Shown: in pieces, positions 11,565-50,765 of the stretch
Layout of the letters: every line of letters begins with the position of its first letter
Numbering within the stretch: the stretch's first letter is position 1
Assembly (NCBI GenBank): GCA_008933995.1
Contig: WARS01000028.1
Coordinates: forward strand, 2,014,001-2,078,000
Reading direction: 5' to 3'
DNA length: 64,000 nucleotides
Origin: Datnioides undecimradiatus
Taxonomy: Eukaryota > Chordata > Actinopteri > Lobotiformes > Datnioididae
The notes under the pieces: model-generated
What the model was told of the DNA's origin: nothing
Databases searched by the model: none
The model's input: only the letters and a program-made list of their open reading frames with translations
Made by a program: the position numbers and the translations under genes

Positions 11565-14500
11565 GGCTTTTTCTTTTACTCGTCCCTCCTCAGCAGCTTC
11601 ACACTCTCAATTCGCTGCCCTCAACAGACTCAACTGAACGAAGGCAGATACTCCCTCAGGCTAGTAAACAGGCCAGCCTGCTCCACCTGTTTCCTCTAAC
11701 TGAGGGTTGGGTCACCCCCTCCCCCTGGTGCACTTTAGATTACCGTAATTACGTCATGGTTTGTGCTACTGGAAAGATTACACCCGTTTATGAAAGCTGA
11801 GACGTTGCTCCTTAAAGCCAATATGGTGTTATTACGGTAATTTGTGTGTAATTTGTGTTTTTCTTCATTTTAAACTGTTATCACACTCTTGTAACATGGT
11901 GCCAGATGTTGGATGTTCCAGGTATTCTGGAAAAATGGGCAAAGGCACTTACTCACAGGACATTTTCTGACTTTTTGTAGTGAATATAAGCAAAAAAGTC
12001 CAGTCAAAAGCAATGTCTGTTTAGTTTAATTAAAATTTTGCTGACCTTGAGAAAAAAAACAAAAACACTGTACTGCTCAGGCTTGAATTACTTCCCTCTG
12101 TGTCTGGTCTTCTACCTCTGATTCACAGACTTCATGGAATAATTATATAAAATGATGACGACTTACCTGAAGAACCTGGAAGACACGAACACAACATGAT
12201 GGGATGGCATCTTCTCAAGTGAGTTTATCTCAAGTGAGTCTAAAATTGCAATTTCCTTACAATTTGTGAGTAGAGAGCAGGAAAGGACTGCACAGATTTC
12301 AGGCAACAGGATCTTATGATTCTACCCTTGTCCAACAAAATTTTCTTTTGATTTGTCAAATGCAGTGAACATCTTCAGCATGAGGCACGGTAATCAGAGG
12401 TGACAGTGAAATGTGACTCTCTATTTCCATCCAGTGGCAGCCTTATGGAAATACAACACAGTCGGCAACACCTCTTCACAACTCCCTCCCCTTTTTTGCA
12501 TATATTTACTTCCACGTCTGCTTCCTCGCTAGCAGTTACCCAACAACTACAGCTCTCCAAAGATAAGACACGAGGCTATGCGGGGACAATGTTCAGTGTT
12601 TCAACCCAGATCACTGGTAAGTATCCACATTTCCATTACCACTGCTGTCAGTGAGCAATCAACACTGATTTACTGACATTAAATTCAGACTCCAGCTGGT
12701 TTATAACTCACTAACTTTGAAACATCATCGTGTGTGCTCAGCTGCTGCTTATCATAATCACATGATTATCTGGTCAGCTCTATTCCTGTGGGCCAATATC
12801 ACAAGTCACAAACAAGCAGCTTTTCAACCTGCACAGCAGACAACCCCAGGTATTTTGAGACCCTGAACTGAAGAAGAAAACTCTGGAGGAGGAGGGCTCT
12901 GTCTCCGGTGATGGACAAACAGGAAATGACATACGTACAGAGTAGGTCAACATTGCACGACGAGAGGCTACAAAAACTCACAAAAGCACAGCGTTCACAG
13001 AGATCCAGATCCAAAACATCTGGAAGAACTGACGTGAAGAGGGAGGAGGGGGGATAGTTACAGCCATGCTGGATCATTTTAAAGAGACCAGAGGGACAAA
13101 TATAGACTGTAAGTACTTGGCATAACAGATTCCCTGAGACTGAGCAGATACTAGGTTTTAAGTAATCAGACAACAAGCAGAAAACTGAAGGTTAAAGGCA
13201 AAATGAGTAGTTTTAAGTGTGTGTGTGTAAAGGGCCCATCACAGTCAAACTGTCTAATATCAACAGGGTCTTTGAGGATGGGTGCATGATAATGAAAAAG
13301 CCACATTAAAATAATACTGAATGTAGAATTTTATTAAACATGACCATCTTTGGCTAAATGTTGCGATGTGATCAATAAGATATCCTGTTAAGTAACGTTG
13401 CACTCCAAGGCTTTTTAGTTATGACATCCAATGACAACAAAATTTTGATTAATTCTTTAAAACACAAATTGTAAGTGTCTGTTTGGACAGACCTAAAAGT
13501 TCTTTCTCATTCATCTTTATTCATACATCCTCTGAGGACATGCCATCTTAATGTGCTTTCGGTAAGTCTTGAAGATCCTGACTTGTCTGACAGCATGAAT
13601 AAAGAGGTCAGCAAGCAAAACCAGTTTTGACAGAAAAATACAAACCCATTCTTTATATACATACCAGTCCCTGTCTGTTCTTGCTATGCCAGCTCATCAG
13701 TGTGGTGATGCCACGCCAGTATCCTCTTCCTGTTCCTAACTTTGCTCGGTAAATGTGTCTCCAGCCAGTCAGTGACTTTTTCCTGCCTTTGTACTGTTGG
13801 ATATTTCAGCCTGCTCTGCCGACATCTGCACTGAGGGTCCTTTGACATTTAAGGTTACTCAACAGTCAACTTCTGCTTCCACACCAAAGCTGTATTTACA
13901 CTGTATTATTCAGTACGAAGCAGTGAAAACTTGTCTGATGCCATACTAATTTTCCAGGTTGGGATAGTGAAGGTTGGAGGATTTGATGGCAAACACACCT
14001 GCACCATTTGAAATACAGGTAACACCACTTTCAAGACACATACAATGAACAGACTAATGTCACAATAAAGTTAAACTGTAGACATAGATATCACATGGAT
14101 GTGATGTAAAATACGTCTGGTTTGTTGTGGGTTTTGTTTTTTGGGGGTTTTTGTCTTTTTTTTTATCAGAAGTACTTTCAGGTGAGATCAAAACATATCA
14201 GAACTGGCCTGAGAGTCCTTTCAGTGCTGTCGGACCAGAGAGAGCTTCTTTTTTTTCTTTCTTACATTTTCCTCAGTCTGTGTTCAAAACATCAGACTTG
14301 GTGCTCTGTAGTCCTGCAATACAAGGCATCCAATGCGTAGCAAATGTCTGGGGTTTCCTGAATTCAAGATAGTTGTAGATAGTTGATAGTTCTTTTGTTT
14401 GTTTGATTTGTTTTTCAGAAACGGTTAAAACAAATGTTTTAAATTTAATGCTTGTTAACAAACTTTTTGAACATATTCTTTGGAAAAATTCTTATTCAAC

Positions 14501-14846
14501 CAATGCACCATGAAAATACTGAAATAGTATTAAATGTGCAGTCACATACAGAGATAGACATATTGAAGGAATATGGTCATCAGAGTGAGTTAATCAACAT
14601 TTAATGAGCAAGTGCAAGAAAAAGGTAAAAAAGACTTAAGTTCACTGGAAAGTTGTTTGTAACAATAATATGGACTTTATTTTTAGCTCTTATTTATTGT
14701 CAAGTGTCTCTGCTATCTAGAAAAGTGCTATATAAATTAAATGTATTATTATTAGAAGCTGCTTTGTATTTTAGATGCACATTCACAACAGGTGTGCAGG
14801 TAAAGTGGCATGAGATGAGATAAACCATTTCAGTCCCTCCAATAAG
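11565..14846. other. Region between the tspan8-like start and the first PYD exon
   Basis: No recognisable coding exon. Bases 11565 to about 11760 should contain the tetraspanin 5' UTR and promoter; no TATA box is evident. A stretch ending in a good splice donor (CTG then GTAAGT at about 12613) could be a 5' non-coding exon of PYD copy 1, but nothing independent supports it. The rest is A/T-rich unique-looking DNA. Confidence 0.5.
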
Positions 14847-14876
14847 AACTTCTCTTATTTTCAGCAGGGAGCCATA

Positions 14877-16852
14877 ATGGTGATATTTAAAGAAGAGTTC
14901 TTGAAAACCCTGGAGGACTTGGTAGAAAGTGAATATGACAAATTCAAGTGGTACCTGAAGCAGGATAACGTCCTGGAAGGATACTCGGGCATTTCAGCAG
15001 CTCGGCTGGAAAAGGCACAGAGGCAGAACACAGTGGATCTAATGGTACAAAAATATCAGGATCCTGGAGCGCTGAAGGTAACCTTGACGATTTTAGAGAA
15101 GATCGACAGGAATGATCTGGTGCAGCATTTACAAAGCTCCTGCTCAGGACTAAAAGGTAAGTTGTGGAAGGTAAAATATAAAGATCTGAAAGAAGCTTCA
15201 TTATATTTTAGCATGTCCATGAAGGACAACATGACAAGACTTAAAACAACTGAATTAAATTGACAGATGTGCTGAGCCAATCAAAGGGATCAATTATAGA
15301 GTTCAGTTAGGATTGCAAAATAACTGAACACGCTAACGAATCTGATATCACTTTCTCTTTCTTGTTAGCAAAGGTCAAATCTGCTGTTGCTTATTAGTTG
15401 TGAGTAAATTGATGAAAAGCCAAAATGAAACTTGGATGTTGTCTAATGAAAGAGCTCTATGCAGCTGATGTCTGTACTCAGGTCATATCTGTGGACCAAA
15501 CCTTTAATACATTTAAGTGTACCATGACTTTCAGTGTTTAGATTAAGAACCTACTGAAAAGTAAGTCTAAACAGACTTATTACGGCTGTTGTTTTATTGT
15601 GTTAGAAACATTCAATTTACATTTTGATAAAGACAGATCGGACCCTGTATCACTGTATCAGCAGATACCCAATGTTAAACAACTTGATTTGGGATCAGGG
15701 CCAAAAATCCAGGTAGCAGTTTGAAGATGTTTGCCCCTGATTCTTGAAAACATCACAAAGAGTTATTCTGCTAAACCCACTCAAGATATTTTTGTGTTCT
15801 GCTTACTTTTAGACCTCAAGAACCATCACTCTAAGAAGACCGAGCTGGGGGCTAAAATTAAACTGATGATCCAGGAGAGACAGATGAAGATCACTGAAAT
15901 CAAATGCTCAGCAGAAGTCAGCAGCAAGTCTGCAGACAGACACATTGCAGACAGTGAGAGGTTCTTTAGAGATTTGCTGCAGTCCGTCAAGAGAAGTCTG
16001 GCTAATGTCACTGAAGCCATTAACAAAAAGCAGAGAACAATGCAGAAAAAGTCGGAGAAATCAATCCAGCAGCTGGAACAGGAGATCTATGAGTTGACAA
16101 AGAGAAGCAATGAGATAGAACAGCTCTCATGTACTGAGGACCACCTCAACAGCCTGACTGCTATTCCAACCACCAAGGACTGGGCTAAATTCACCATTAC
16201 TGAACCATTTTATGAGAGAAGTATGGAGGAAGCTGTGAATCAACTGCATGATAAATTCAGCAAGGGGAAAGAGAAACTGATTGCAATGGCCAAGCTGAAC
16301 AGCATCAAAGAGTTTGCAAAAGATGTGACTCTAGATCCTGATACGGCAAACCCCTTCCTCATTTTGTCTGAAGACAGGAAACAAGTGTACTGTGGTGATG
16401 TTAAGCGAAACCTCCCAGACAACCCAAAAAGATTTAATACTGTTGCGAATATCTTGGGAAGGCAGAACTTTTCCTCAGGAAGATTTTACTATGAGGTTGT
16501 GGTTAAAGGAAAGATTTCTTGGGATTTGGGTGTTGTCAAAGAGTCAGTCGTCAGAAAGGGGTCAATCAAAGCAAGTCCGGAGAATGGCTACTGGACGATA
16601 TGTTTAAGGGAAGGTGATAAGCTTAAAGCTTCTTCTGTCTATCTCGCTGTAAAATGTCTGCCAAAAAAGGTGGGCGTGTTTGTGGATTATGAAAATGGTT
16701 TAGTCTCCTTTTATGACGTGGATTCTGCAGACCTTATCCACAGCTTTACTGACTGTCTCTTCACTGAGAACCTTTACCCATTTTTCAGTCCCAGTAGTCA
16801 TTATGGGGGTAAAAACTCCTCCCCTTTAATCATCTCTCCAGTAAATTTTTAA
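14877..16852 (+). CDS. PYD / TRIM-type coiled coil / B30.2 protein, 439 aa (cluster copy 1)
   Basis: Two coding exons, 14877-15156 and 15813-16852, joined in phase 1 (donor AAAG then GTAAGT; acceptor ACTTTTAG). Residues 1-93 form a whole pyrin domain, a death-fold module that recruits ASC-like adaptors, with the family marks EEFLKTLEDL, DKFKWYL, TVDLMVQKY and GALKVTLTIL. Residues about 100-225 are a long amphipathic helix like the TRIM/finTRIM coiled coil, ending in the typical EIEQLSCTEDHLNSL. Residues about 255-435 are PRY-SPRY (DVTLDPDTANPFLILSED, FYYEV, GYWTI, VGVFVDYENGLVSFYDVD). There is no RING, B-box, NACHT or LRR, so the order is that of mammalian pyrin without its B-box. The start follows a strong acceptor (TTTTCAGCAG) used again in copy 3. 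The frame is intact, so it is probably functional. Role inferred: cytosolic innate immune sensor or regulator. The gene name is unknown to me. Confidence 0.85.
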
Positions 16853-18240
16853 ATTTGATCAATCATCTCTTTGAAACTGATTTTAAAATTTAACATACAT
16901 CACAAATGAAAGTCATCAGCATAATTTTTGTATTGCCGTTTGGTTTTAGTTCAACTAGATAGTGCCACTTTCTCTTTGACAACATGAATATACAGATGTG
17001 CTGCGTCCCTCTGCTCCCTACCACAGTCTACCAAGCAACAAATTTGTTGCTATGTGCCCTGGATAAGTGTCGTATGTATTGCCCTGTATGGCTTAAGTGG
17101 TAGTGTTTAAATCCCCCGCAGGTCTTTGTAGGCTTTCAGTTTAGCTTGTATTGTTCTGCTCAAAAGTCCTGTCCCGGGTCTTTAATGGTTTTTACAATGA
17201 CCTTGCAGACTCAGAGAGTGGATCTGAGAAAGCAAGCCAACCAAGAACAATGGAAGGGGGTTGCACTATGGCCCAAACATTAATGATCAGACAAATAAAA
17301 TTCAAATAAGGTGTGAGGAAATCAACACGTAAAACAGGTTTATTTTTACAAGTTTTATGAGCTGACAGAAAGCAGTTCCCGGATGATACTCGGTTATAAA
17401 CAGGCAGAGCATCGCTACACTTCCGTTCAAAACATTTGATCAACATCAGACCAATAATACAAAGAATAGTATGTTTATTAGTCTGTTTTGGGTAAATGTG
17501 TGTTCTTCATCATAGGTTATCCTGAGGCCCGTGTGAATGCTTCAAGCCCATAGCAGGTCTTAATACCTGTGTCAGACAATCTAATCTTAATCTCTACTGT
17601 GCTCCAATGGTTCTATGGTTCCTGTCTTTGTAGATTCTCGTTGTCTTGGCTGTTATGTGTGAAATTCAATAAATAAATATTTGCTATTAAAAATTGGCTT
17701 GACATAATCTGACCTGTTCAGTTGGGTAATGATAAACGATGGTGATATGAATCAAGATATTACTTAAAACGTTGAACTAACAAGAGGTTGGTTAGATTAA
17801 TAAAACTGATCTTGCTCCCTAATGGGAGCTGGAGAGAATGAGTTTTAAATGGTTTTCAAAAAAGCAATATTTTCCAACAAATTATCATATAAGATGCCTC
17901 CATCTGCCTTACAACTTTACCCATGTTCTATTCTGTAAGACAAGAAAGGAAATTAAAGCTGTAACATGTCAAGCATTACGTTACTCAATAATGCTCAAAG
18001 GTGACAGAGGCAGGAAGACGAGCAAAACTGAAAGACACCTTCTAGATCAGTGGTTAGTCTGTTAAAATTCACGAGAAGCTTCGTGTCTAACCTTGCAGGA
18101 GGGAAGTCAGACCTTTCTCTGCTCAAAAGGATGCACTGTGGTTTTGACAATGCACTTTTGCTGACACTTTTGACCACAAAATGTAGACACAGACATTTGT
18201 TTTTGAGCTTTTGCCTCTGAAGCAGATAGTAATAATAATC
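16853..18240 (+). other. 3' flank of PYD copy 1 and 5' flank of copy 2
   Basis: Bases 16853 to about 17690 are the likely 3' UTR of copy 1. Bases about 17840-18230 align by eye with the upstream flanks of later copies: the AACAAATTATCATAT motif near 17876 recurs near 19457 and 24095, and GTTAAAATTCAC near 18061 recurs near 24153. They therefore belong to the duplicated unit. No coding exon seen. Confidence 0.55.
17669..17678 (+). promoter_or_regulatory. Probable polyadenylation signals of PYD copy 1
   Basis: Two overlapping AATAAA hexamers lie about 820 bases past the stop codon. The sequence around them (including GTTCAGTTGGGTAAT downstream) recurs after copy 2, where an AATAAA occurs at 19279-19284. 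This suggests a shared gene 3' end. Confidence 0.5.
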
Positions 18241-18250
18241 AATAGCCATA

Positions 18251-18960
18251 ATGGTGATATTTAAAGAAGAGCTCTTGAAAACCCTGGGGAACTTAGTAGA
18301 AAGTGAATATGAAAAATTCAAGTGGTACCTGAAGGAGGATAGGAAGGAGGATCGCCCCAAAAATATTTTGCTACAGAGGTGGCTTGGTCTGGGGACGTGT
18401 TTTCAGCAGCTTTGTGCAGCACAGATACTATTGAATGATACTTGTCACTTTGCTCATGAGGGTGATTTCTAGTAGAACTGTAATCATATGACATACTGCA
18501 TGTTAACACATTAGATTAGAAAAGCTGTTCTGCAAGACTGACTTTATGTGTGCTTTGTCTTGTTTAGCCCTGAAGACACATAGTTTTGATGCTCCTGTCA
18601 ATCACCCACTGAACCTTAAGCCACTTGACTCTGGTGAAAAAACTGAAAGACAAGAAAGAAAAAGCTGAAGAGTGTCCAGCAGTTTGCAGTGGATGTGACT
18701 CTGGATCCTGATACAGCACGCCCACATCTCATCTTGTCAGGTGAATTGAAAGAAGTCTGTCATAGTGATGTGAGGAAAAAACATCCATACAACCCCAAGA
18801 GATTTAAGAGATGTGTTAATGTCTTGAGGAAGCAAAGTTTCTCCTCAGGAAAGTTTTACTATGCGGTTCCGGTTAAAGGGAGGCACACACTAACACATGT
18901 TTTGACTTATTGTGGTTGGATTGTAGAAGATAAGAGATCATTAATCTCTGCTGTACTTTA
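18251..18960 (+). pseudogene. Broken PYD-B30.2 gene (cluster copy 2)
   Basis: It starts like copy 3 (ATGGTGATATTTAAAGAAGA) but the exon runs only to about 18345. There it jumps straight into sequence matching the intron of copy 3 from about 21625, so the last two thirds of the PYD exon, its donor and the first part of the intron are gone. The acceptor before the ATG is also lost: TTTTCAGCAGGGAGCC is replaced by unrelated sequence. The second exon begins at about 18570, nearly identical to copy 3 at 21838, then has a frameshift in an A-rich run near 18660. It loses homology within the SPRY domain at about 18885. Four separate lesions make a functional product unlikely. The near-identical intron sequence shows it is a recent duplicate of copy 3 or its parent. 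Confidence 0.85.
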
Positions 18961-19168
18961 GAAAAAACAACTGCACACAATGTGACACTTGATTAGGCAT
19001 TCTTATCTCCAACAAGATAAGCATGTCAAATAAAGAGTCCCAACATTTGTGCCCAAACTCAAAAAGAGGTGTAATACATGTTTTTTTCTGTTCATTGCTA
19101 ATTAATCATCGCCAGTGCTCTCCAACCACTGGACAACTTTGGTTTTTGCTGAACTTTAACCTTCTACC
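18960..19168 (+). repeat. Duplicated non-coding block, copy A
   Basis: Matches 20495-20720 at high identity by eye; both contain GCACACAATGTGACACTT, GATAAGCATGTCAAATAAAG and GTAATACATG. It lies directly downstream of pseudogene copy 2. Confidence 0.8.
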
Positions 19169-19804
19169 TTATGTTATTTACTGTACTGCAATTCTTGCAT
19201 CACTTCTGTTGGATATAGCGGCCACAGTTTTTTGTTATATATTGTTGCTGTTGTGTTTGGTGGTTTTGTGCAAAACTCAATAAAAAACAGATCACCATGT
19301 TCAGTTGGGTAATAACGCTATATGATGTTGATATCGATGATAAATTTGCCTGACCTGCAACCAGAGATGGGGAAATGTGCTTTGTGGATGACTCAAGAAT
19401 ACATCAACAGGGGGGATTACAAGTATAGATATTGTTCACTGGTTAAACGGTCAAATGTTTTCAACAAATCATCATATTAAGTGCATTCAGATATGATTTT
19501 ATTTCCGTTAACCTTGTCCATGTGTCACTCTTACCTTTTAGGTGGATGCAAACTTGCAAATTTAATGCCTATAAAGTTTACCTCTGTTTTACATGAAATA
19601 CAGGTTCCTAACAATGCTGAAAAAATGACTGGCAGGAAGACGTGAGTAAACTCTAATGTGGCTTTGTATATACATGATTAGTTGCACACAGTTAGCCTCA
19701 CATCCACCGAGAGAGTACTCCCAGCTCCACCTTTTATAACCATTTAAGGATGAGATGTAGATATAGACATCTGATTGGTTATGAACTGTACTGAGTCCAG
19801 AGTC

Positions 19805-20108
19805 CACCTTCATGAGGAACCTAAGATTCATGACAAGAGAGAATAAGTAGGGGTTTGCTTGTGCAAAAACCAAATACGACGAGAAGTCATTGCTTGTGAA
19901 AAACACAAGCTAGTTTTTAAGGGGGGTGGCGAATAAGGAAATGTAACAGGAAGAAGAGCAAGAAGGAAGAGACAGACAAGTCTGACAGCCACAATCTTTA
20001 TCAGAAAACTTATAGGCAACTTTTCATAGAATATACCCTGTGTCAGACTATTTTAATGGGACTGTTCATCTTTCCATATTAGAAGACCTGTGGGCTAAAT
20101 TCTGCTTG
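19805..20108 (+). promoter_or_regulatory. Probable promoter and non-coding first exon of PYD copy 3
   Basis: This stretch aligns by eye with 24453-24678 upstream of copy 4 (shared TGAGGAAC, CTTGTGAAA, GAAGAGCAAG-like runs). Both end in the same splice donor, GCTTG then GTGAGTTGA (GT at 20109-20110). The donor sits about 1.1 kb before the PYD exon, whose acceptor lies just before its ATG, so an upstream non-coding exon is required. The exact transcription start is not visible. Confidence 0.5.
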
Positions 20109-20494
20109 GTGAGTTGAATTTAAGCAGATTATAAATCACATTTTTGCAATCAAGTACTTCATGTTTGGAATGACAGGAAATCCTTCTATAGTGGCGGTCT
20201 TCAAAGTCTTCACAGGACAATACTTTTTAAGTATTAACTCTTCAAGTATGTCCACATTCTTTATCATTATTATCAAAATATACACGTTGTTTAGGTCTGT
20301 GGCAATTTCTTTTTTATCTGCAAACAAAATTCAAAGGGAAACCAGAAAATGAAAAGAGATCATGGTAAAATGAAGTATCATTTGGTAGCTCAACTCAACT
20401 ACAAAGGATTATCAGTCCATAATTAAAGTGGTAAAAAAAGATTGGATAACTAACCATTTCCCTCTCTGAACAATTTTGAGATGCAGTTTTTACT

Positions 20495-20720
20495 TTAGAA
20501 AAAACTGCACACAATGTGACACTTTATTAGGCATGCTTGTCTCCAACAACAAGATAAGCATGTCAAATAAAGAGTACTAACATTTGTGCCCAAACTCCAA
20601 AAGAGGTGTAATACATGCATTTTTTCTGTTCATCATTGCTAATTAATCATTGCCAGTGCTCGCCAACCACTGGACAACTTTGATTTCTGCTTTCTGACCT
20701 TGAACCTTCTACCTTGTGTT
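20495..20720 (+). repeat. Duplicated non-coding block, copy B
   Basis: Second copy of the block at 18960-19168. It lies in the leader intron of copy 3, while copy A lies downstream of copy 2, so it marks an unequal exchange or segmental duplication within the cluster. Confidence 0.8.
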
Positions 20721-21217
20721 CAAGACACAAAACACTCACCACATGTCCAGAAACACAACCCCATATGAGTACTAATGTCTTTCAGTGCCTTCCATGTTAC
20801 CATGTTCACCATATCAACTTTATCAGGTAATATTGTCAACATAGCAACGTACGCCATCTACCTAATGACCAAACAAATCACCAAAGAAAAAAATCATACC
20901 AATCAAAACTTGTTATTCCTTAGTTTGTATACCATACTGTGTATCTTGGTCCCTTACGGAGAATTAAAATATTCAACTTGGTTTTTGATTCTCTCGAGTT
21001 TGAATTCACAAATTTCAAGTAGCTTTGGACGATGTAATCTCACGTAATGTAATCATATGTGGACTGTCACAGTAAAAAAGACTGAAACAATGAAAATGTG
21101 AAAATTTTGGTGATCTATTTTTCAGGCGGTATGTGATTTGAATTTAAGATACACATTTATTACAGCTACACTTAGGAAAGTGGCTTTAACTTCTCTTATT
21201 TTCAGCAGGGAGCCATA

Positions 21218-23159
21218 ATGGTGATATTTAAAGAAGAGCTCTTGAAAACTCTGGAGAACTTGGTAGAAAGTGAATATGACAAATTCAAGTGGTACCTGAA
21301 GGAGGATAACGTCCTGGAAGGATACTCGGGCATTTCAGCAGCTCAGCTGGAAAAGGCACAGAGGCAGAACACAGTGGATCTAATGGTACAAAAATATCAG
21401 GATCCTGGAGCGCTGAAGGTAACCTTGATGATTTTAGAGAAGATCCACAGGAATGATCTGGTGCAGCGTTTACAAAGCTCCTGCTCAGGATTAAAAAGTA
21501 AGTTGGGGGAAGGTAAAAAACAGAAACTCCTGTCAGTGCAGGTTAAATTTCCTCAGTCACATTATCTGATCCACACCCAGGTTACACCAAACATCTAAGA
21601 GTAAAACCTATCACAGTCACGTCTCCCCAAAAATATTTTGCTACAGAGGTGGCTTGGTCTGGGGACGTGTTTTCAGCAGCTTTGTGCAGCACAGATACTA
21701 TTGAATGATACCTGTCACTTTGCTCATGAGGGTGATTTCTAGCAAAATTGTAATCATATGACGTACTGCATGTTAACACATTAGATTAGAAAAGCTGTTC
21801 TGCAAGACTGACTTTATGTGTGCTTTGCCTTGTTTAGCCCTGAAGACACATAGTTTTGATGCTCCTGTCAATCACCCACTGAACCTTAAGCCACTCGACA
21901 CTGGTTATCAAACAGGAGAACGCGAAGGGAAAAGGGCTGAGCTGAAGAGTGTCCAGCAGTTTGCAGTGGATGTGACTCTGGATCCTGATACAGCACATCC
22001 TGCTCTCGTCCTCTCAGATGATGGGAAACAAGTGCATCATGGTGATGTGAGGAAGAAACTCCCATACAACCCAAAGAGGTTTAAGACATGTGTTAGTGTC
22101 TTAGGAAAGCAGAGTTTCTCTTCAGGAAAGTTTTACTATGAGGTTCAGGTTAAAGGGAAGCCTGCCTGGACCTTAGGAGTGGCCAGTGAGTTGAGTGAAA
22201 GGAAGGGAGATATCACAGTGAGTCCCGAAGATGGTTATTGGACAATATGGTTGAGGAATGGAAACCAGTATAAGGTTAATGATAACCCAGCAGTGTGTCT
22301 ACCTCTGAAGTCACATCCTCAGAGGGTGGGAGTGTTTGTGGATTACGAGGGGGGTGTGGTCTCCTTTTATGATGTTGATACAACAGAACATCTCTATTCA
22401 TTTACCGACTGCTCCTTCACTGGGCACCTCTTTCCATATTTTAGTCCCTGTACTAATGACAATGGTACAAACTCAGCCCCCCTCCTCATTTCTCCAGTCA
22501 ACCTCTCACTGAACATTAAGACCAGTGACTCTGATGATCAAAAAGAAGAATATGAAATGAGAAAAGCTAAGCTACAGAGTGTCCAGCAGTTTGCAGTGGA
22601 TGTGACTCTTGATCCTGATACGGCACATCCACATCTCATCTTGTCTGATGACTTGAAACAGGTCCATCACGGCGATGTGAGGGAGAAACTCCCATTCAAC
22701 CCCAAAAGGTTTAAGAGATGTGTTAATGTCTTAGGAAAGCAGAGTTTCTCTTCGGGAAAATTTTACTATGAGGTTCAGGTTAAAGGTAAGCCTGCCTGGA
22801 CGTTAGGAGTGGCCAGTGAGTTGATTGATAGGAAAGGAGATATCACACTGAGTCCTGAAGATGGTTTTTGGGCAATAGGGTTGAGAAACGGAAACAAGCA
22901 TAAAGCTCTCAATGGACCATCAGTGTATCTCTGTCTGAGGTCGCGCCCTCAGAGAGTGGGGGTGTTTGTAGATTATGAGGAGGGTCTGGTGTCTTTTTTT
23001 GATGCTGACAGTGCAGATCTTATTTACTCATTCACTGACTGCTCCTTCACAGATAACATCTATCCATTCTTTAGTCCCTGTACTAATGATAGTGGCACAA
23101 ACTCCGCGCCCCTCATCATTTCTCCAGTCAATCACCCACTGAGCCTTAAGGCACATTAG
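21218..23159 (+). CDS. PYD protein with two tandem B30.2 domains, 533 aa (cluster copy 3)
   Basis: Two coding exons, 21218-21497 and 21838-23159, joined in phase 1 (donor AAAA then GTAAGT; acceptor TTGTTTAG). Residues 1-93 are a complete pyrin domain, 92% identical to copy 1 by hand count. After a short linker come two full PRY-SPRY domains, at about residues 130-313 and 342-525, both inside the same exon. Each has the LDPDTAHP PRY core, SFSSGKFYYEVQVKGK, PAWTLGVASEL, a W-I strand, RVGVFVDYE and a FSPCTND..TNSAPL.ISPVN end. The two domains differ most in the loop after the W-I strand and are nearly identical elsewhere. No coiled coil, B-box, NACHT or LRR is present. The frame is open throughout. 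Known biology: PYD recruits inflammasome adaptors and B30.2 binds ligands. A dual-headed sensor or decoy is my inference. Confidence 0.85.
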
Positions 23160-23655
23160 AGTTGTGATCAACAGCAGAACAACAAAGAAAAGGGGCTGAG
23201 CTAAAGAGTGTCCAGCAGTTTGCAATGGATGTGACTCTGGATCCTGATACAGCACATGAGGTTTAAGACATGTGTTAATGTCTTGGGGAAGCAAAGTTTC
23301 TCCTCAGAAGGATTTTACTACGAGGTTCAGGTTAAAGGGAAGAGTGTCTGGGACATAGGAGACAGAAAGGGAGATATCACAGTGAGTGCTGAAGGTGATT
23401 TCACAAGTATGAGGCTAAGAATGAGGCTAATGATAATTCAACACTGTATCTCTCACATCCTCAGAAGGTGGGGGTTTTGGCAGATTATGATGGGGGTCTG
23501 GTCTCCTTTAATGATGTTGATATCGTAGAACTTCTCTACTACTACACTGACTGCTCCTTCAGTGGGAACTCCTTCCATTCTTCAGTCCCTATACTAATAA
23601 CAATGGTAGAAACACTACTGCCTTGATCATATGTCCTGCCAGCCACAACAACTAA
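23160..23655 (+). pseudogene. Third, decayed B30.2 module behind copy 3
   Basis: It begins one repeat period after the second B30.2 (GTCCAGCAGT at 21951, 22581 and 23210, spacing 630 and 629). The preceding frame ends at the stop at 23159. An internal deletion just after LDPDTAH removes roughly 75-100 bases of PRY, and frameshifts follow. Recognisable remnants include a SFSS..FYYEVQVKGK-like stretch, RKGDITVS and a degenerate SPRY end with CTNDN-like sequence near 23600. It is not translated as part of copy 3. Confidence 0.85.
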
Positions 23656-23770
23656 ACATACTTGCAGGTGTTTTCAGTTATTATAGTCCATGGGACTTTT
23701 AATCTTGTAGAAGTAAAAGTCAAAATTGGCAAGAGTTGTCACTAAGTCTATCAACAGTATGTGCAAGTAT

Positions 23771-23776
23771 AATAAA
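23771..23776 (+). promoter_or_regulatory. Probable polyadenylation signal of PYD copy 3
   Basis: AATAAA about 610 bases past the stop codon, after the dead third B30.2 module, which would then form most of the 3' UTR. Usage inferred. Confidence 0.4.
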
Positions 23777-24452
23777 AGATTGTATTGTCTCAAGTACCAT
23801 CTGTCCACTTATGGTCTGTTTTTTGTATGTCATATTTAATGGGGAAGAACATTCTTTGTAAGTCAACTTCTATGCAACACGAAAAGGGGGAGTTGTCAAT
23901 GAACTACAGTCTGTAGATGTCAATACAGACCTTAGAAGAGGACTGTTGGAGTGTGTCATATGGGTGACTTTCCTTGAAGATATGGCCAATGGTAAAAACT
24001 TGTATACACTGTATTTTATGTTGTATAGCAATGCAATGTTAATAAATGTCATCCTGTAAATATTTTCAAATACACTTAAGATGGTCAGGTTAACAACAAA
24101 TCATCATATCAAGTGTGCTTATGATAGGATTTATGATATGTGGTTAGTCTCTGTTAAAATTCACATGAAAAGTCTTGAGTCTGACAATCAGAGCGGGAAG
24201 TCAGACCTTTTCCTGCACATGATCAGTATGTGTTGTGGTTTTTACATTGCACTGTAGCTGACACTTTGACACTCCTGTATGACCTTTCAAGGATAAAATA
24301 TAGACAGTAATAATGTTAAGTCACATCTATTTTGGCAGATAAAGATATACTTGTATAACCTAAGCGGAGTGATAATCGTTCAACAGAGGTATGAATGTTT
24401 TCATTTCTTTATGAGCTGGTCTGATTCTTTGGGGCCTGTGGTCACGTGGAGT

Positions 24453-24678
24453 CCACCTCAATGAGGAACATGACATGTTGCTTGTACAAAACCAAAAGAT
24501 GAGAAGTAGTGGCTTGTGAAAGACGCAAGTAAGATTCTCAAGCAGGTGGCTAGACTGGAAATTTAAAAGAAAGAGAAGTTGAGGAAAACACATTCAACTG
24601 TGTTTGAAGAAACATCACAAACAACGTCGGGAAACTCATCTTTCTAAACTTTAAAAACTCGGTGCTGAATTCAGCTTG
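24453..24678 (+). promoter_or_regulatory. Probable promoter and non-coding first exon of PYD copy 4
   Basis: Aligns with 19805-20108 and ends in the same donor (GCTTG then GTGAGTTGA, GT at 24679-24680), about 700 bases before the copy 4 PYD exon. Conservation across two copies while surrounding DNA has drifted is the main support. Confidence 0.5.
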
Positions 24679-25384
24679 GTGAGTTGAACTGAAAAATATT
24701 AAACACATACTTTTTTTTATTTTTAGCTTTTCCTTGTTTAAAGAGACACTGTTAACAATGTGGGTTTTCAATTGTATGCCTGTGCCTTTTCAAGTTTGAC
24801 TCTAAATTGTTATTAGTAGTCATAATAGCAGAAGCAGTAGTAGTAGTGGTATGGGAATATGGAAAATCAGGCCATAATTAAATGTGGAACATAAAGTCTG
24901 AATTACTCGTGATTTCCCTGTCTCTGACCAACCTTCAGATGCAGTTTTTACAGTAGGAAAAATCCATCAAAATAATAAAAAATACTTACTTGACTTCTGT
25001 AATCTTTCTGATGACATCACAGCTGATTTAACTTTCACTGGCACAGGTGATATGGCATGATATAAAGCGGACAGACATAGTGAAGCATTTAGCCGCTAGA
25101 GAGCATCTAAGAGGAGGAAGTGAAGAGCAAAGCTAAAAGAGATAATATTGGAACTGTGTTCTCCAGGTGGCCAGAAACATGACTCCTGATGTCTCCTTAT
25201 ACTATTCAGTATACACAACTGTTTGCCAACATGTTCACAATGTTAACTTTATGAAGATGATACAATATTGTGTTTACAACCTATTGGGCTGTCATGGAGT
25301 AACAAGAAGCATTAATGTCAGTCCAATCAGACATAAATGCCCTTTAGACTAAATGGTTCTCTAAATTTTGACCAGGGAACCAAA

Positions 25385-26875
25385 ATGGCAAAACTGTCAG
25401 TGGAGCTGTGGAAAGCACTGCAGCAATTAAAAGACCATGAGTTCAAGACATTCAAATGGCTCCTGCAACAGGGTGACACCTCAGAAGGCCGCTCCAGCAT
25501 CTCTGCAGCTCAGCTGGAGACGGCGGACAGACAGGACACGGTGGATGTGATGGCACAGAAATATGGCAGCACTGGAGCTATAAAGGAAACCATGAACGTC
25601 TTAGAGAAGATCAGCAGAAACGACTTAGTACAGAGTTTGCAAAACTCATGCACAGATCCTAAAGGTAAGTTGGGGAAGTCAAAAATATGAAGATCTAAAG
25701 AATATGCCTGAGTTAAAGTCATCTTCCAAAAATAAATACTTAACATGCATCACGGTACATCACATTCTTTTGCATAGTGTGCACTGCAAGTGTGAATCTA
25801 AGAATCTCTAGAAGACTTCTGGTGAACTGCTCACAACACGAATGCCAGAAGTCAAATACCAAAAATAATATCTAAATTATCTTGAAGGGAAAAGCTTGTT
25901 TATAGTGACATCATATCATACCATACCATGTGTTTCCAACAGATAGTTCACAGATTCACTATGAAAAGACCACAAAGTTCACTGACTTTGACAATGGTGC
26001 TAGCTTCAGAATAGCCTCTAGGTTCCTCATACAACCTGGGAACTTATCAATGTAGGGGTGAGCCAAAACATATCTACACCTCCCAGCAACCTCTACAAAC
26101 TCCTTCCTTCACTACTCTTAGGCAATATTGCTTATTTCAAGAGCTATTTCTGACAGCCAAAAGCTAGTCAGTCCAAGCGCACGTCTTTCAGGCACCCACC
26201 TTGGACATCTTTGACCACATCTGAAACTGACTTTCACCTGTGACAAGTTTAACAATTGAGATCCTACCAGAAGGATTTGGTCCAGACAACAGTGAACCCA
26301 CAGTCACAAAGATGGAGGTTCCAGGGGAGTTTTACCTAACATGGAGTTTATGCTTTATTGAGATCAAACCATTAAGACAAACAAATGTTTATGAATACAG
26401 TTTACTAAAACCACTGGTTGCCTGGCAACCTCTCACACATCGAGTCATCTGGCCAAATAAAGTCTGAGCAAAATCACCAACTGTCATTTCAGCATGTCAT
26501 AATTTTATTATTTATCAAACTGCATATGATTTGTTAATTTGTGAAATTTTGTATTATTAGACAGAGTTGGCTGTCATTCTCATCTTACATGATACAAGTA
26601 TGTGGGTCTCTCTCTTCCTTACTTCAGACCTCATGCCACAAGACCATGACAGAATGAAGGTTGAGTCAAAGAGCCAACAGGAATTTCCAGTGAATGTGAT
26701 TCTGGATCCCGGTACATCGCATCGTAATCTCATCGCATCTGATGACTGCAAGCAAGTATATCATGGTGATGTGAGAAAGAAACTACTGGACAGTCCTGAG
26801 ATGATTTTTAGATGTGTTTGTTGGACAGGACTAAGAATTACTCAACAGGAAGGGACAAATAACACTGAGACCTGA
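25385..26875 (+). CDS. PYD with truncated PRY, about 175 aa (cluster copy 4)
   Basis: Exons 25385-25664 and 26628-26875, joined in phase 1 (donor AAAG then GTAAGT; acceptor ACTTCAG). The first exon is again exactly 280 nt and encodes a complete but more divergent pyrin domain (ELWKALQQLKDHEFKTFKWLL, DTVDVMAQKY, IKETMNVLEKISRNDLVQSL). Exon 2 starts in frame with a PRY (VILDPGTSHRNLIASDD, KQVYHGDVRKKL). It loses the FYYEV part to a deletion and stops at 26875. Decayed SPRY sequence continues out of frame to about 27060. The gene is either a dying copy or a short PYD-mostly protein comparable in layout to mammalian PYD-only regulators. The intact 93-residue PYD beside a ruined SPRY favours some retained function, but this is uncertain. 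Confidence 0.6.
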
Positions 26876-27234
26876 GAATAACTTCTGGACTTTAAGGTTA
26901 AGGAATGAAAATGAGCTCAATGCCAATGATCAAAACACTGTCCACGAGGATGGCAGTATTGTGGATTACGCTATGGATCAGGTCTCCTTTTATAATATAG
27001 ATATTGCACATGTATTGTTTTACCACCTAACTGCTAACTCTACCCATTCTTCAGATCTCTGGTTATCTATTCTGTCAGCCACACTGATTAGATTCATCAT
27101 TTGTGTTCCCAGAAGAGGTTTTCTGTGATTTAACATAAAATCAATGGTACTACACAACTCAAATTCTGTTTAATATGATTACATTAAAGTGCAAGCCAAA
27201 TTTGAAACAAACACTCAAAATGTGTCGAAATATT

Positions 27235-27240
27235 TTTATT
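27235..27240 (-). promoter_or_regulatory. Probable polyadenylation signal of fbxo15
   Basis: AATAAA on the minus strand about 250 bases past the fbxo15 stop codon. It lies close to the end of the decayed copy 4 SPRY, so the two genes converge tail to tail. Confidence 0.55.
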
Positions 27241-27491
27241 CTACGAGTTGAAACAGGGTCTTATTAACAAAATACAAAAAGAATTTCAAATGTTTTTGCT
27301 CTAAAATGATTTTTCCTTTTTCTACTGAAAGCAGCAACTCTTCTAACAAATGATGCCTTCACAGCATAGGCTTATAATAGTCTCTTCAGTCATTCTTACA
27401 GAATGAGACTTTGCTTTGTATAATAAATTAACAAAAAATGTAAACTCATTTTACATTGGTAAGCCGTGATCCTGAGCAGTCCAATTCAGCT

Positions 27492-30400
27492 TCAGTAGTT
27501 TCTGCTGAAATACTTGTTGACTTTGAAAACAGGAACATAGATAGAAAGGCTGATGAGGAAGAACTGCTTCTGCTCCTTCAACCAGACCAGCTTCATCTTC
27601 ACCTGACCCTCTGGGCTCCGGTAGTCCATCTGAAAGTGCTCGCCACTGTAGTCGAAGGACGGTTTATTCTTAGCCATCGTGATGCAAATGGGTGTGCTGA
27701 CACACCAGAAGGGTTTCTGGAACTCGTCCAGCAGAGTCAGCGTTAAGATGCAGCAGTTCTGCGCAGTGTAAGAAAAAAAAAAAAAAACATCAGGCCTGAA
27801 CAAAAAGGATGTGAACCCGATATTTCCCCAACGGCCGAGCCAAACGAAACATATTTTGCTGATTTGTCAGTACAACCACAGTGTGTTAAAGTCAACCTAA
27901 CAAACAACCCATTTTGTTAGTTACATATACTTTAGTTAATACAGGTCTGGAGTTAGCATATATTTTTTTCAAGAGGTCAAGCGAGTACAATTAATTATAG
28001 CAGAAGAAACATTTACGTGGTAAACTAACTACCACTACTACTATTTGAAGCTAATTTACTCTCTTTATAGCGCTTTACATCCTCTGCACTCAATGTCCTC
28101 TGCCTTGCTAAGCTAATAAGCTAACTAAGCTAGCAGTTTTTACATCCCTGAACCACTGTCTTGGCTACTGGCAAAGATGGGCACTGTGGAGAACTAAAGT
28201 CACTGTCACTGCTGTCAATTCCAGCCAATCAAGCTGAAACCAGCTGATGTAGACAAGACATTACTCTTGAAACTGTGTTTTAAAGGAATATTCCAACATT
28301 TTAGGATAAACACTGTAAAAGCTGGAAATCTGGAGTCTCTGGACCTCTGGTCTAGTGACAAAATCATGACAAGTTATCGTTACAACAACTGGTGGCCTGA
28401 GGTCAGAAATCGGCCGAAAGCTGGAACTAAAAAATGTTTTCTTTGTTGTCAAACAGGATAGAACAAACAACTTCATCTAATACATATCTTTATTTTTAGT
28501 CTCTAGCATTACCAAAGCTACCTGGTTGCAGATTTATGGTGATGTGTGTTTGTGATGCCCTGAACTGACACTTACTGAAGAGAACCTGTCCATTTGTTGA
28601 GCTGTCTTCATCACATTGTTTCAAAGGTGTGAGAGCAATGATTGAATGACAGAGCATTTAATAATGAACACACCTACTGATTTATATTCACCATTATCCA
28701 GCCCTGCACAACCGCACATACATGAAGACAGCAGGTGACATGGAGACACCCACTCAGTCCCCATGCATTTTACTCGCATCGGTTTGCACTCTGTGCTGTG
28801 CAGCAGTATTATTATGCAAATCTATTCTTATACTATATATTACATTATTAAACTAAGCATTTAACTAATGCATGAAAACCATTAGTAAGGGCGATCATTT
28901 AACATACGTTCCTACACATAGTTGTCGACTGATAACGGTTTAATCTGATGTTGGAATGAGATTAAAAAGAAAGGATGCAAACAGTAGAAATGTGGAATAC
29001 AGCATAAATCTTCAATTCTTAAATATTTTCAATTTAACGTGTTTAGAAAGGTGGAGGTGGAGGAAATGCCCCACAAGTACCAGCACTGGAGCTATAAAGG
29101 AAACCATGAACAGAAGATCAGCAGAAATGACTTAGTACAGCGTTTGCAAAATTCATGCACAGATCCTAAAGGTAAGTTGAGGAAAGTCAAAAAAATGAAG
29201 ATCTAAAGAATATGCCTGAGTTAAAGTCATCTTACAAAAATACATTAACTACTTGCAAAACGTTGTCTGTTGTTGCTACGGCAAACCATCTAGTGCTGCA
29301 GTGCAAAGGAAGGAAACTGTCACTTCTCCACCGGCCACCATAACCCAGGTGTCTTCAGCTTGTTCGGGGAGGAAACAGGGCATCATGTGCTTTTCAATGA
29401 CTGTAGTTAAGTCCAGAATGCAGCGTGACACGGTTTGAACCCCAACAGGTCAATGAATGCGCGGAATCCTCTGATGCCACGACTCTGGAAAAACATCATG
29501 TTTATTTACTGTCTTTGTTGTTTAAAAAGAACATTTCCTCTGTTCTTAACAATACCTGAGCAAAGTAGGAATAAGTGGCAGTCTCTGCACAACACATTGA
29601 ACAGCATCAGGTAAACTGTGTCAGTGGGTCAGAAATGGGTGGGAAATGAGGGAATGGAGGAAAGGCAGTAGCAACGATGGAAAACACAGATTCCACAGTG
29701 AAAAAAATACTCTTGCTTGGTAAAACTCACAAAAATATCACATGCTTTAATTATTTTAGTCCCTGGCTACAGTCCAGCTAACGCACAGAGCTGGAGACTT
29801 ATAAGGATCGAATCTGTTGACTGCTGGCTGAACCGTGTGTCACTTCCATTAAAGAAACAACTGAATACGACCCATATAAAACATCTGCTTTCTGTTTAAA
29901 AAGCACAAATGTAGGGAGGCAGTACTCACCCGTTTGTCAGTGGAGCAGTTATAATCCCAGGTGCACAGCTGAAAGATGACAAAACTGGACATTTGGCGGT
30001 CCAATATCACATGATACGATGCGACGGTCGGACGCTCTCACTTGAAGTAAGGAACCCACGATCCAGGATAAACCAAACAAGATGTAACATGAATCATGAG
30101 CTTTACAGGTGCTGCTAGGCTAAGCTAAGTGGGGGCTAGCTGCAGCTTCTCTTTTGACCATCGGTGACCAATCAAACAGGTGCAATCCCGAAAATGTCAC
30201 ACAATTCCTTTAAGGTGCTTTGTGTCTGTTTCACATGTTGTAGACTTTCAGCTGTTAGCTCGTTTAGCGCTGTGCAGATAACGTGAAGGAAACCAGGTTT
30301 GCCTCGATGCTAAACCATTTTATTGTTTTGCTGTAGCAGCTGCTGTCTTGTGCCGCTTCGATGTCGTCACATGCTAGCCTTAGCTAGCCTGCTAACTAAA

Positions 30401-33400
30401 GCAGTGTTTGGTGACAGAGAAACACACACTCCAACTGGTTCAGTGTGTGTGCTGTTTAGGACGTCTGTACCTCGACTGAACCCTCCAGTGCGCCGCTCTT
30501 CCAGGGCAGCTTGATGCTTCCGGACAGCGACCTGTGCTGAGACAAGTTGGTCCTGTCGATGACCCTGAGCTCCAGCTGCCCACCCTGGATCTGACCTGAT
30601 CGCAGCAGCACAGACAACTTTCATTTTCAGCATAAACAGGAAAACCTCTGCTGGTTCTCTTCAAATCTGGATGTGTTTTATTATTAATTTATTTACTGTG
30701 GCTCAATATATCCATATCCGCCTGTCGTTGACTTACTTTTATGGATTACATTATGTAATCAGATTACCTGCAGGACAGAAGAGCTGGCCGAAGTGTCCCG
30801 ACATGATCTCTGTGCCAGTGTTGTGCAGGACGACGTTCAGCGTGTAGCTGTGGAGACCGAAGTCAGGGTCCAAGTCATCTACAGGTGGATTGTATACGGG
30901 CTCAGAGTACGGGCTGCAGGAAGGGACAGACCAGAGGAGGAAACCTGCCCGTGTGAGACGTTTGTTTACAAAGAGTCCATCCATCACTCAGCTCAGTCTG
31001 TCACTCTGGATTACAGGCCGACTGAAGCTGCCAGCTCTGTCACTTCCTGTAGAAGCTGACAATAAAAATTAACCAAATAAACGAATGTTTAGCGTTTCCT
31101 GCTCCAGCAGTTTGGACACAACAGACTTGTCTTTGCCTTTAAGCAGCTGCAGTGTTTATTGACCAGCACACTGGATCTTAAACTGCACATTTAGAGGCAG
31201 ACAGATGACGTCCTGAACCACCTTTCACTTAAATTCCATTTGAACTCATCAGGGAGCAGCTGAAATTAACAACAACATGTATTTGTTTTGTTTGATTGTG
31301 CAGACATCACCTGTGTCCGTGCTGGAGGTGTTAACGAGAGCTGGACTCACCAGACCGGAGATCCCAGCAGGCTCCTCTCGACCAACCTGTGGAAGTGCAG
31401 GCTGACCATGATGAAGGCGACGCTGTCCTGACCCTGCAGGAAGACCAAACAAAGCTGCACAATTAAAAAGGTAAAGAGAGGAATATTACACACACACCAG
31501 TAATAGATGCATGGAGAAATACAAATAAAACACAACAGTAGATAACAAACAACATGTAAACACCTGTTTCTGTAGACTGTGAATAAGAACATGGATATAA
31601 CATATGACACACATTATGAATATTTATATTTCTTCCTTTGCATGTTTTTATAGAAACCTTCCACATTTTCAGTCAAGTATTTGTTTATATGTCTGGTTTT
31701 AATAAGTCGTTTGCCTCCTGCACGTCCTCATGAACACCAACAGCAGTGCTTCATGGTTGGTTTCTGCAGGTCAGTGCCGCCCTCTGCTGGACGACACTGA
31801 CACTTTGTTCTCTGCGTCAGGGTTTGACTTAAACTCTTGATGCAAAGAAAAAGTTTGTTCAGTTTTGAAACACAGATCAGCTAAACAGTTGCTCTTTTAA
31901 CATTTTTCATTCAATTATGACGGTTATGGTGTACAGAGACAGATGATTTGTCTCAGTTTGGGCTTTTTAAAGTTGTGCTGCATGAGATCAAACAGGAGTA
32001 AACATCAGATTTCAGGGAATAATGAGACTGATTAGCAAGAGATTAGAGAGAGCGTCCCTGCATGCTCGTGCATGCAAAACATTAATTTTAATAATTGTCC
32101 ATTACTGATGCATCCTGTCATGTCTGAGCTGAGCTACAATGAATATTTAAATGAGACCTTCACCTGAATTAGAGCCCGAGGGATTTATCAGCAGCACATC
32201 AGCCTCAGAGCTGCTGCTCCTGCTGAGTCAGCAGTGTATCTGCTGGTGTGTGAGTCAGAGTGAGTGTGTGGTGATGTGTTGCTGTGACTCCAGAGTCTCT
32301 GCAGAGCATTGAAGCTGAGTCTCTGCTTTAATAAAGAGTCGGAGTCACATCGCTGCTGAATCGCTGCTCAGTCACTGAGAGAAGCTCTGTTTCACTCACA
32401 CACTCACTGATCAGCACATACACTGATCAGCACATACACTGATCAGCTGCAGGTTTAACCTCTGACATCAGAATCAATGATCTGGCTTGAGTTAAACCTG
32501 CTGACACTGAGTTTCCCCGTCAATAGATTATCAAAGGCTGTAAAAGGCTCATAAACTGTTGCCTCACTCTTTCACTTTGTTGCTGTTTCTCTGGAAGTTC
32601 ATATAATAATTCATAAATCCTCCAGTATAATGTTTCAGGAAACCCTGCTAATGTGCTCATGCTAACAGCTATTGGCTAAAGTCAGATTCAGGTTTACAGA
32701 TCCTGGATCTGTCAGGTTATAATCCGAATCATGAAACATGATTCCACCAAACTCTGAGTAAATATTCAGAAGTTTCCAGAGATTCAGGTTCATGCCTTTA
32801 AGAAGTTGGAGCATGTTTTTGTTTTTTCCTGCTGAACACTGACCCTCCAGACGCCGACGATGACGCCGGGCGACAGATGCATAAGTTTGACGAGTCTGTC
32901 TCTGCCCATGGACCGAACCGGCTGAGCCTTCACGTCCAGCTCGAGCATCAGCGAGCGCCAGCCGGGCCTGATGGAGGGGAAGCAGGAGAGAGGTGAAGGT
33001 GTGCTGGTGAAGGTGGAGGTGATGAGGTGTAGTAAAGGCTCAGTGGGTCTCTGACCTCCTGAGGCTCTGGAGCGTCTCCTTGCGAACGCCGTGCAGCCGG
33101 ATGCAGCTGATGTGACGGTAATGGAGGAAGCTGCCGACGCTCCAGCAGATGATGATGGATGAGTTGAAGAAGGAGGTTCGACTCTGCTCCAGCGTGATCT
33201 TATGCCCTTTACGATCACTCACCATCAGCTCCCAGCTCGTATTCATGTTCCTGAAAACAACAACAACAACAACAACCAGATGGAGCTGAGAACAAGGACA
33301 GAGTACATGGAGATAAACAGAGAAACTACAACAAAACAGAATAAACCAGAAACTGTGCAGAAGCAATTATTAATATCAACAGAGCAAACTGACACAGCTG

Positions 33401-37856: not shown

Positions 37857-50765
<12,909 letters not shown>

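Follow-up and report, generated by a model that had tools for sequence, protein, structure and literature searches.

In a tandem array in the genome of the teleost Datnioides undecimradiatus, a two-exon gene (hereinafter copy C) joins a pyrin domain (PYD) in frame to a single exon that encodes two complete B30.2 (PRY-SPRY) domains. Its intact neighbor, copy A, encodes a PYD, a TRIM coiled coil and one B30.2 domain (439 aa). Judging from the comparison of their sequences, copy A looks like a pyrin-like chimera made in fish, and copy C looks like its derivative, in which the coiled coil was lost and the B30.2 domain was doubled in cis. The window analyzed is a stretch of 64,000 nucleotides of contig WARS01000028.1, and all coordinates below are positions in this window unless another locus is named.

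Gene model and tandem array

The original prediction, namely a 93-residue PYD exon starting at 21218 and spliced from a donor at 21498 in phase to 21838-23159, proved exact in its coordinates (Table 1). The join (donor A/GTAAGT at 21498, acceptor TTTAG/CC, exon 2 from 21838) yields 533 aa in one frame, and the other five of the six donor/acceptor pairs tried break that frame. Exon 2 lies within an open frame of 460 codons; in 500 Markov shuffles of the 7-kb region, no plus-strand open frame was longer than 195 codons. The predicted presence of two PRY-SPRY domains in this exon was likewise borne out, Pfam giving two stretches each of PRY (1.2e-45) and SPRY (2e-49) in one open frame. By its coordinates, unit 1 follows the PYD exon after 35 residues; the two units, as delimited here, are separated by 23 residues. 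Among solved structures, pyrin and the NLRPs rank first as relatives of the copy C PYD, the best being the PYD of human pyrin (2mpc, 1.6e-8), and unit 1 is 48% identical to the B30.2 domain of human pyrin (9r6y letters). Downstream of the stop, the DNA of a decayed third unit (23258-23613) is 74.8% similar to 22076-22472, the frame at 23235-23528 has no Pfam match, and the third unit of the other haplotype has one internal stop.

Upstream, the segment 20066-20131 is 74% identical to 24636-24701, which precedes copy D. Donor-like GTs are located at 20109 and 24679, and an acceptor-like TTTTCAG lies directly 5′ of the copy C ATG; together, these features probably mark a first exon of copy C that is non-coding. 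The promoter motifs found in 12000-30000 comprise three GAAANNGAAA sites, one of them on the other strand, and four GAS-like sites; no regulatory argument is drawn from them.

Table 1. Features of the PYD-B30.2 array and their positions in the window
Feature	Position	Strand	Basis or remark
Copy A PYD exon	14877..15156	+	92% aa identity to copy C PYD
Copy A exon 2: TRIM coiled coil and one PRY-SPRY	15813..16852	+	Pfam TRIM_CC 7.1e-26, PRY, SPRY; in-frame join
Copy B (pseudogene): first part of PYD, to 18340, fused to intronic sequence and a PRY remnant	18251..18881	+	
Putative non-coding first exon of copy C	20066..20131	+	5′ leader piece, donor-like GT at 20109
Copy C PYD exon	21218..21497	+	ATG to donor, phase 1; Pfam PYRIN 1e-21
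Copy C intron	21498..21837	+	GT...AG; only frame-keeping pair of six tried; same in other haplotype
Half B-box relic across acceptor, mostly intron, copy C	21777..21869	+	six-TRIM B-box model; end set by eye
Copy C exon 2 lead	21838..21941	+	exon-start and unit-tail alignment: ~24 nt as copy A exon 2 start, then B30.2 tail and linker
Copy C B30.2 unit 1 (PRY and SPRY)	21942..22502	+	Pfam PRY/SPRY
Linker between units 1 and 2	22503..22571	+	between copy C B30.2 units
Putative conversion tract: unit 2 of C473 with unit 1 sequence	22504..22696	+	linker and PRY
Copy C B30.2 unit 2	22572..23132	+	Pfam; 78% aa identity to unit 1
Unit 2 tail and stop TAG (23157-23159)	23133..23159	+	
Third B30.2 unit, decayed	23160..23640	+	internal deletions, frame lost
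Copy D PYD exon, intact	25385..25664	+	54% aa identity to copy C; Pfam PYRIN 1.3e-22; donor AAAG/GTAAGT
Copy D PRY-SPRY, broken	26561..27128	+	
Fragment E: 3′ end of copy-D-like PYD exon	29081..29242	+	91.7% to 25567-25734

Comparison of the window with itself by tblastn and blastn delineates five plus-strand copies, A to E. Copy C shares its donor, acceptor and phase with copy A, and positions 18352-18881 of copy B are 89.6% identical to 21622-22158 of copy C. The array is flanked by minus-strand tetraspanin matches (3315-3638 above and 2253-2519 below the Pfam cut-off) and by plus-strand kinase exons (49389-50765). Long simple repeats of the CA/TG type at 46500-47060 are open in several frames and are ordinary. 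The PYD exons of copies A and C are 96.4% identical, over just 331 bp, with a dS of 0.035, whereas dS between the B30.2 units of the two copies is 1.3-1.8. Thus, the PYD exon appears to have been recently copied between A and C, most simply by gene conversion.

The original prediction also singled out copy C as the best candidate for an undescribed architecture. This stands insofar as no description of PYD + B30.2 + B30.2, or of a fish PYD + coiled coil + B30.2, was found in those parts of the open-access literature that were searched; the neighboring copy A, however, had been missed. Because copy A, with its coiled coil and single B30.2, is its neighbor, copy C is to be viewed as a derived member of the array rather than as a free-standing new design. 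Automated gene models with either architecture may well exist. The “PYD1” of a paper on grass carp TRIM47 (PMC12286827) is a yeast vector and not a pyrin domain.

Missing domains and the probable sources of the parts

Copy C had been predicted to lack a coiled coil, B-box, NACHT and LRR, and scans with dedicated models and with Pfam agree, the only trace being half of a B-box that is mostly intronic. Models of the RING, B-box and coiled coil were built from six TRIMs of the same genome, with leave-one-out controls. Among the 610 open frames of 12000-31000, the coiled-coil model detects copy A only (116.6 bits; next 6.6). The best RING and whole B-box scores are 10.0 bits (73-103 in the controls) and 12.9 bits (53-80 in the controls), respectively, and Pfam detects neither FISNA-NACHT nor LRR in copy C. 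The half B-box relic, which appears to lie across the exon 2 acceptor in both copy C (21777-21869) and copy B (18507-18665), scores 11.0-12.9 bits, and 12.9 bits was reached by one of 100 shuffled sets; in copy A, it is barely visible (0.9 bits). The frame that enters exon 2 in copies C and B resembles the second half of the B-box of a btr-like TRIM. The position of the relic is as if the acceptor had arisen within former TRIM coding sequence.

All matches to NCBIfam models were far under the cut-offs, Rfam gave nothing at gathering scores, and no relatives of copy C exon 2 or of the PYD were detected in viral contigs. An AlphaFold2 prediction for exon 2, made with five rows from the window, had a mean pLDDT of 35.6 and was not used.

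The search of the 581-Mb genome for PYDs, in which all 37 candidates were scored, yielded 27 matches, six of which are copies A, C and D on two haplotype contigs. For the other 21 matches, flanks were examined at 19 and 20 chosen open frames were scanned. FISNA-NACHT follows the PYD within ~5 kb at seven loci (three on C489, and one each on C160, C470, C493 and C30), with an additional B30.2 at the C160 locus; C29 encodes PYD-CARD in one frame. An open frame of 15,535 codons listed for C30 in the search for B30.2 domains was discarded as the product of a run of N, the actual frame there being TRIM-like. On the minus strand of C465 (L013:3117-4121), a PYD frame has a RING frame close behind it and, further on, a frame that by eye is coiled-coil-like; this locus may represent another fusion of a PYD with a TRIM. 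Outside the array, the best tblastn relatives of the copy C PYD are the three PYDs of C489 (44-47% identity). In the phylogenetic tree of PYDs, copy D joins A and C with support of 86/92, but the tree gives this group no firm place among the other PYDs.

The corresponding search for B30.2 domains, with 150 of 201 candidates scored, identified copy C as the sole case, by position, of two units in one frame among the 74 matches listed. Among the matches listed, the best relatives outside the array each consist of one open frame. Six of them were taken; they are 541-561 aa long from the ATG, and each encompasses RING, B-box, TRIM_CC, PRY and SPRY in one open frame; we take btr (bloodthirsty) to be the name of these single-exon RING-B-box-coiled-coil-B30.2 TRIMs. 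Copy A exon 2 corresponds to all that comes after the B-box in these proteins, with 48.7-53.0% identity to five of the six and 42.0% to the sixth, and a btr-like TRIM is located on the same contig ~42 kb before the window. In the B30.2 tree, the four copy C unit sequences group together (96/96), but neither they nor copy A receive a firm place. Taken together, the match to the C489 PYDs, the alignment of exon 2 with btr-like TRIMs and the B-box relic indicate that a PYD exon, most likely of the NLR type, replaced the RING and B-box of what was probably a btr-like TRIM.

The probable derivation of copy C can be read from its exon 2. The first bases match the start of copy A exon 2, and from 21862 a B30.2 tail and linker follow instead; the same tail recurs at the junctions between units 1 and 2 and between units 2 and 3. 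The repeat period is ~630 bp, and the first two units are 81.7% alike. On the simplest reading of these junctions, the coiled coil and the leading B30.2 were excised within the exon and the B30.2 unit was repeated. The junction in exon 2 is common to copies B and C and accordingly predates their split.

Haplotypes, conversion and constraint

Contig C473, the other haplotype, is colinear with the window, with 99.6-100% identity at four sampled places over ~63 kb, and its copy C has the same 533-aa design, donor, acceptor AG, frame and stop. That C473 is a separate duplication was set aside on the basis of this colinearity and of paired B30.2 matches, among those listed, at offsets of 2.7-3.4 kb over ~0.77 Mb; a duplication that is both large and very recent is improbable. 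B30.2 matches among those listed are paired on C471/C472 and on C473/C474, yet most PYD loci are found once, and the assembly seems to separate the haplotypes in part only.

Around the exon, the haplotypes differ at 35 of 12113 aligned sites (0.29%), compared with 74 of 1322 sites (5.6%, 19 times this background) in copy C exon 2 and a single site of 1035 in copy A exon 2. Units 1 and 2 of the window are separated by 117 sites, at 42 of which unit 2 of C473 has the base of its own unit 1. These informative sites are concentrated in the linker and PRY, where 36 of the 42 fall in 22504-22696, and in 60-column comparisons there unit 2 of C473 is 92-100% identical to its own unit 1. Among the 58 differences between the haplotypes in unit 2, 45 are bases of unit 1 of C473 itself and 13 match no unit of either contig, most of the latter clustering in 22788-22912. 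The divergence of exon 2 therefore appears to be largely due to conversion of unit 2 by unit 1, with a further contribution from another source or from an old allele. In fish B30.2 domains, the conserved variable sites have been reported to concentrate in the β2-β3 loop of PRY (PMC3137616), a loop which by analogy can be placed in the PRY of copy C.

Between the two units there are 48.7 non-synonymous and 45.3 synonymous substitutions (dN/dS 0.24, dS 0.50), which argues against the absence of constraint (binomial P 3e-8). Outside the conversion tract, the differences between haplotypes are close to neutral (24.5 non-synonymous vs 9.5 synonymous; P 0.20-0.33 against neutrality), a pattern that both relaxed constraint and diversification fit. 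This pattern, as well as the frequency of decay in the array, where copies B, D and E are broken and so is the third unit, counts against a working copy C and would suit a transitional or decaying array member, generated by unequal crossing-over, that has no lasting function and is still open by chance. The retention of the open frame and the splice sites on both haplotypes and the dN/dS of 0.24 between the units at a dS of 0.50 speak against such decay, and so, weakly, does the lack of stops among the haplotype differences (P is 0.03 if 76 differences are treated as independent, and 0.20 when the 42 that match unit 1 are omitted). On balance, we consider it rather unlikely that copy C is merely decaying.

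Proposed function and relationship to known receptors

The original prediction named a bivalent sensor and a decoy as possible roles of copy C. We tentatively favor, with somewhat less than even confidence, the reading of copy C as a working innate-immune receptor made in this lineage, with B30.2 domains that would be bivalent in cis and a PYD that would recruit ASC. It is general for PYD receptors that the PYD is silent until the molecules cluster and then recruits ASC. In pyrin (TRIM20), the isolated B30.2 domain is reported to be a monomer, whereas the coiled coil-B30.2 fragment dimerizes and so carries two B30.2 heads; neither the isolated B30.2 nor the CHS fragment was able to bind pro-IL-1β (PMC4455283). 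By analogy, copy A could in principle present its B30.2 domains as such a dimer. In copy C, two B30.2 domains per chain would replace the dimerizing coiled coil; the resting protein would be a monomer, both heads would bind a repeated or two-part ligand, and clustering on that ligand would bring the PYDs together and nucleate ASC. Conversion between the units would vary the ligand surface, and conversion with copy A would keep the PYD uniform. According to a review, however, the B30.2 domain of fish NLRP3 has no function in assembling the inflammasome or in activating caspy (PMC9978379), so that a B30.2 domain need not be the trigger.

The loss of the dimerizing coiled coil, combined with a PYD nearly identical to that of copy A, would also befit a decoy or brake, that is, a single PYD that caps ASC or caspase filaments, or a B30.2 pair that soaks up ligand, in either case weakening the signaling by copy A or by NLRs. 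PYD-only proteins (POPs) have a PYD that is likewise able in principle to cap ASC, and read-through of the donor would yield a PYD-only protein from copies A, C and D (14814-15263, 21176-21598 and 25337-25690, respectively). Unlike POPs, copy C possesses two B30.2 units, and these are held under constraint although a simple PYD cap needs none, which makes a decoy unlikely. Intron retention, with the PYD exon reading to the stop at 21598, would be compatible with two products, one PYD-only and the other a B30.2-B30.2 protein made from a different promoter or by separate splicing; given that the donor, acceptor and phase are those of copy A, whose full-length protein results from the same join, this possibility appears quite improbable. 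Very improbable, finally, is an assembly or polishing artefact in which misplaced reads created the repeated B30.2 or made the contigs differ as if by conversion: such errors are known to threaten assemblies where two contigs carry near-identical repeats, and most unit 2 differences are indeed unit 1 bases of C473, but both contigs have two units, the differences that match no unit are left over, and C473 is colinear with the window at the sampled places.

In overall plan, copy C resembles the pyrin (MEFV) of tetrapods, with which it shares the N-terminal PYD and the C-terminal B30.2. Human pyrin is the best solved relative of both modules of copy C, although the B30.2 of TRIM21 scores within a bit of it (188.8 to 188.0), and for the coiled coil-B30.2 part of copy A, TRIM21 (180.6) outscores pyrin (4cg4, 162). 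The B30.2 domains of exon 2 are 60-67% identical to those of btr-like TRIMs vs 47-48% to pyrin, and, as in the btr TRIMs and unlike in pyrin, the coiled coil and B30.2 of the array are encoded in one exon. Copy C further differs from pyrin in having two B30.2 domains instead of one and in lacking a whole B-box, a coiled coil and a long linker; where pyrin has a long linker, copy C has the 35 residues noted above. Two regulatory phospho-serines are reported for pyrin (PMC10653879). The pyrin gene itself is described as absent from teleosts (PMC9978379), and its origin has been traced to the base of tetrapods, by recombination between an NLR and a fintrim (PMC4852459). The array thus seems pyrin-like in plan, without being assigned to pyrin.

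Some groups of fish NLR-B30.2 proteins (NLR-C/NLRC3-like and NLRP3-like) also combine an N-terminal PYD with a C-terminal B30.2, and gene conversion and selection on their B30.2 domains have been described (PMC4852459); in contrast to these, copy C has no FISNA, NACHT or LRR. The btr/TRIM39-like single-exon TRIMs of fish (class IV) are the likely source of the coiled coil-B30.2 exon. The array departs from them in having a PYD exon in place of RING and B-box and in the TRIM domains that are left, namely the coiled coil and B30.2 in copy A and B30.2 alone in copy C.

A broader proposition, which we regard as doubtful, is that teleosts independently remade a pyrin-like receptor from an NLR PYD and a btr coiled coil-B30.2, and that a descendant of it exchanged bivalency through a dimer for bivalency in cis and retains, through conversion, divergent alleles of the second head; it would then be an inflammasome receptor whose recognition is diversified among alleles. 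The array is likely to exemplify, in a fish, a recombination of NLR and TRIM such as has been invoked to explain how human pyrin arose. If expressed, it would constitute a natural test of how PYD-B30.2 sensors are constructed: copies A and C have nearly the same PYD, to which A adds a coiled coil and a single B30.2 and C adds two B30.2 domains but no coiled coil, so that their comparison may show whether B30.2 sensors need bivalent binding, be it through a dimer or in cis.
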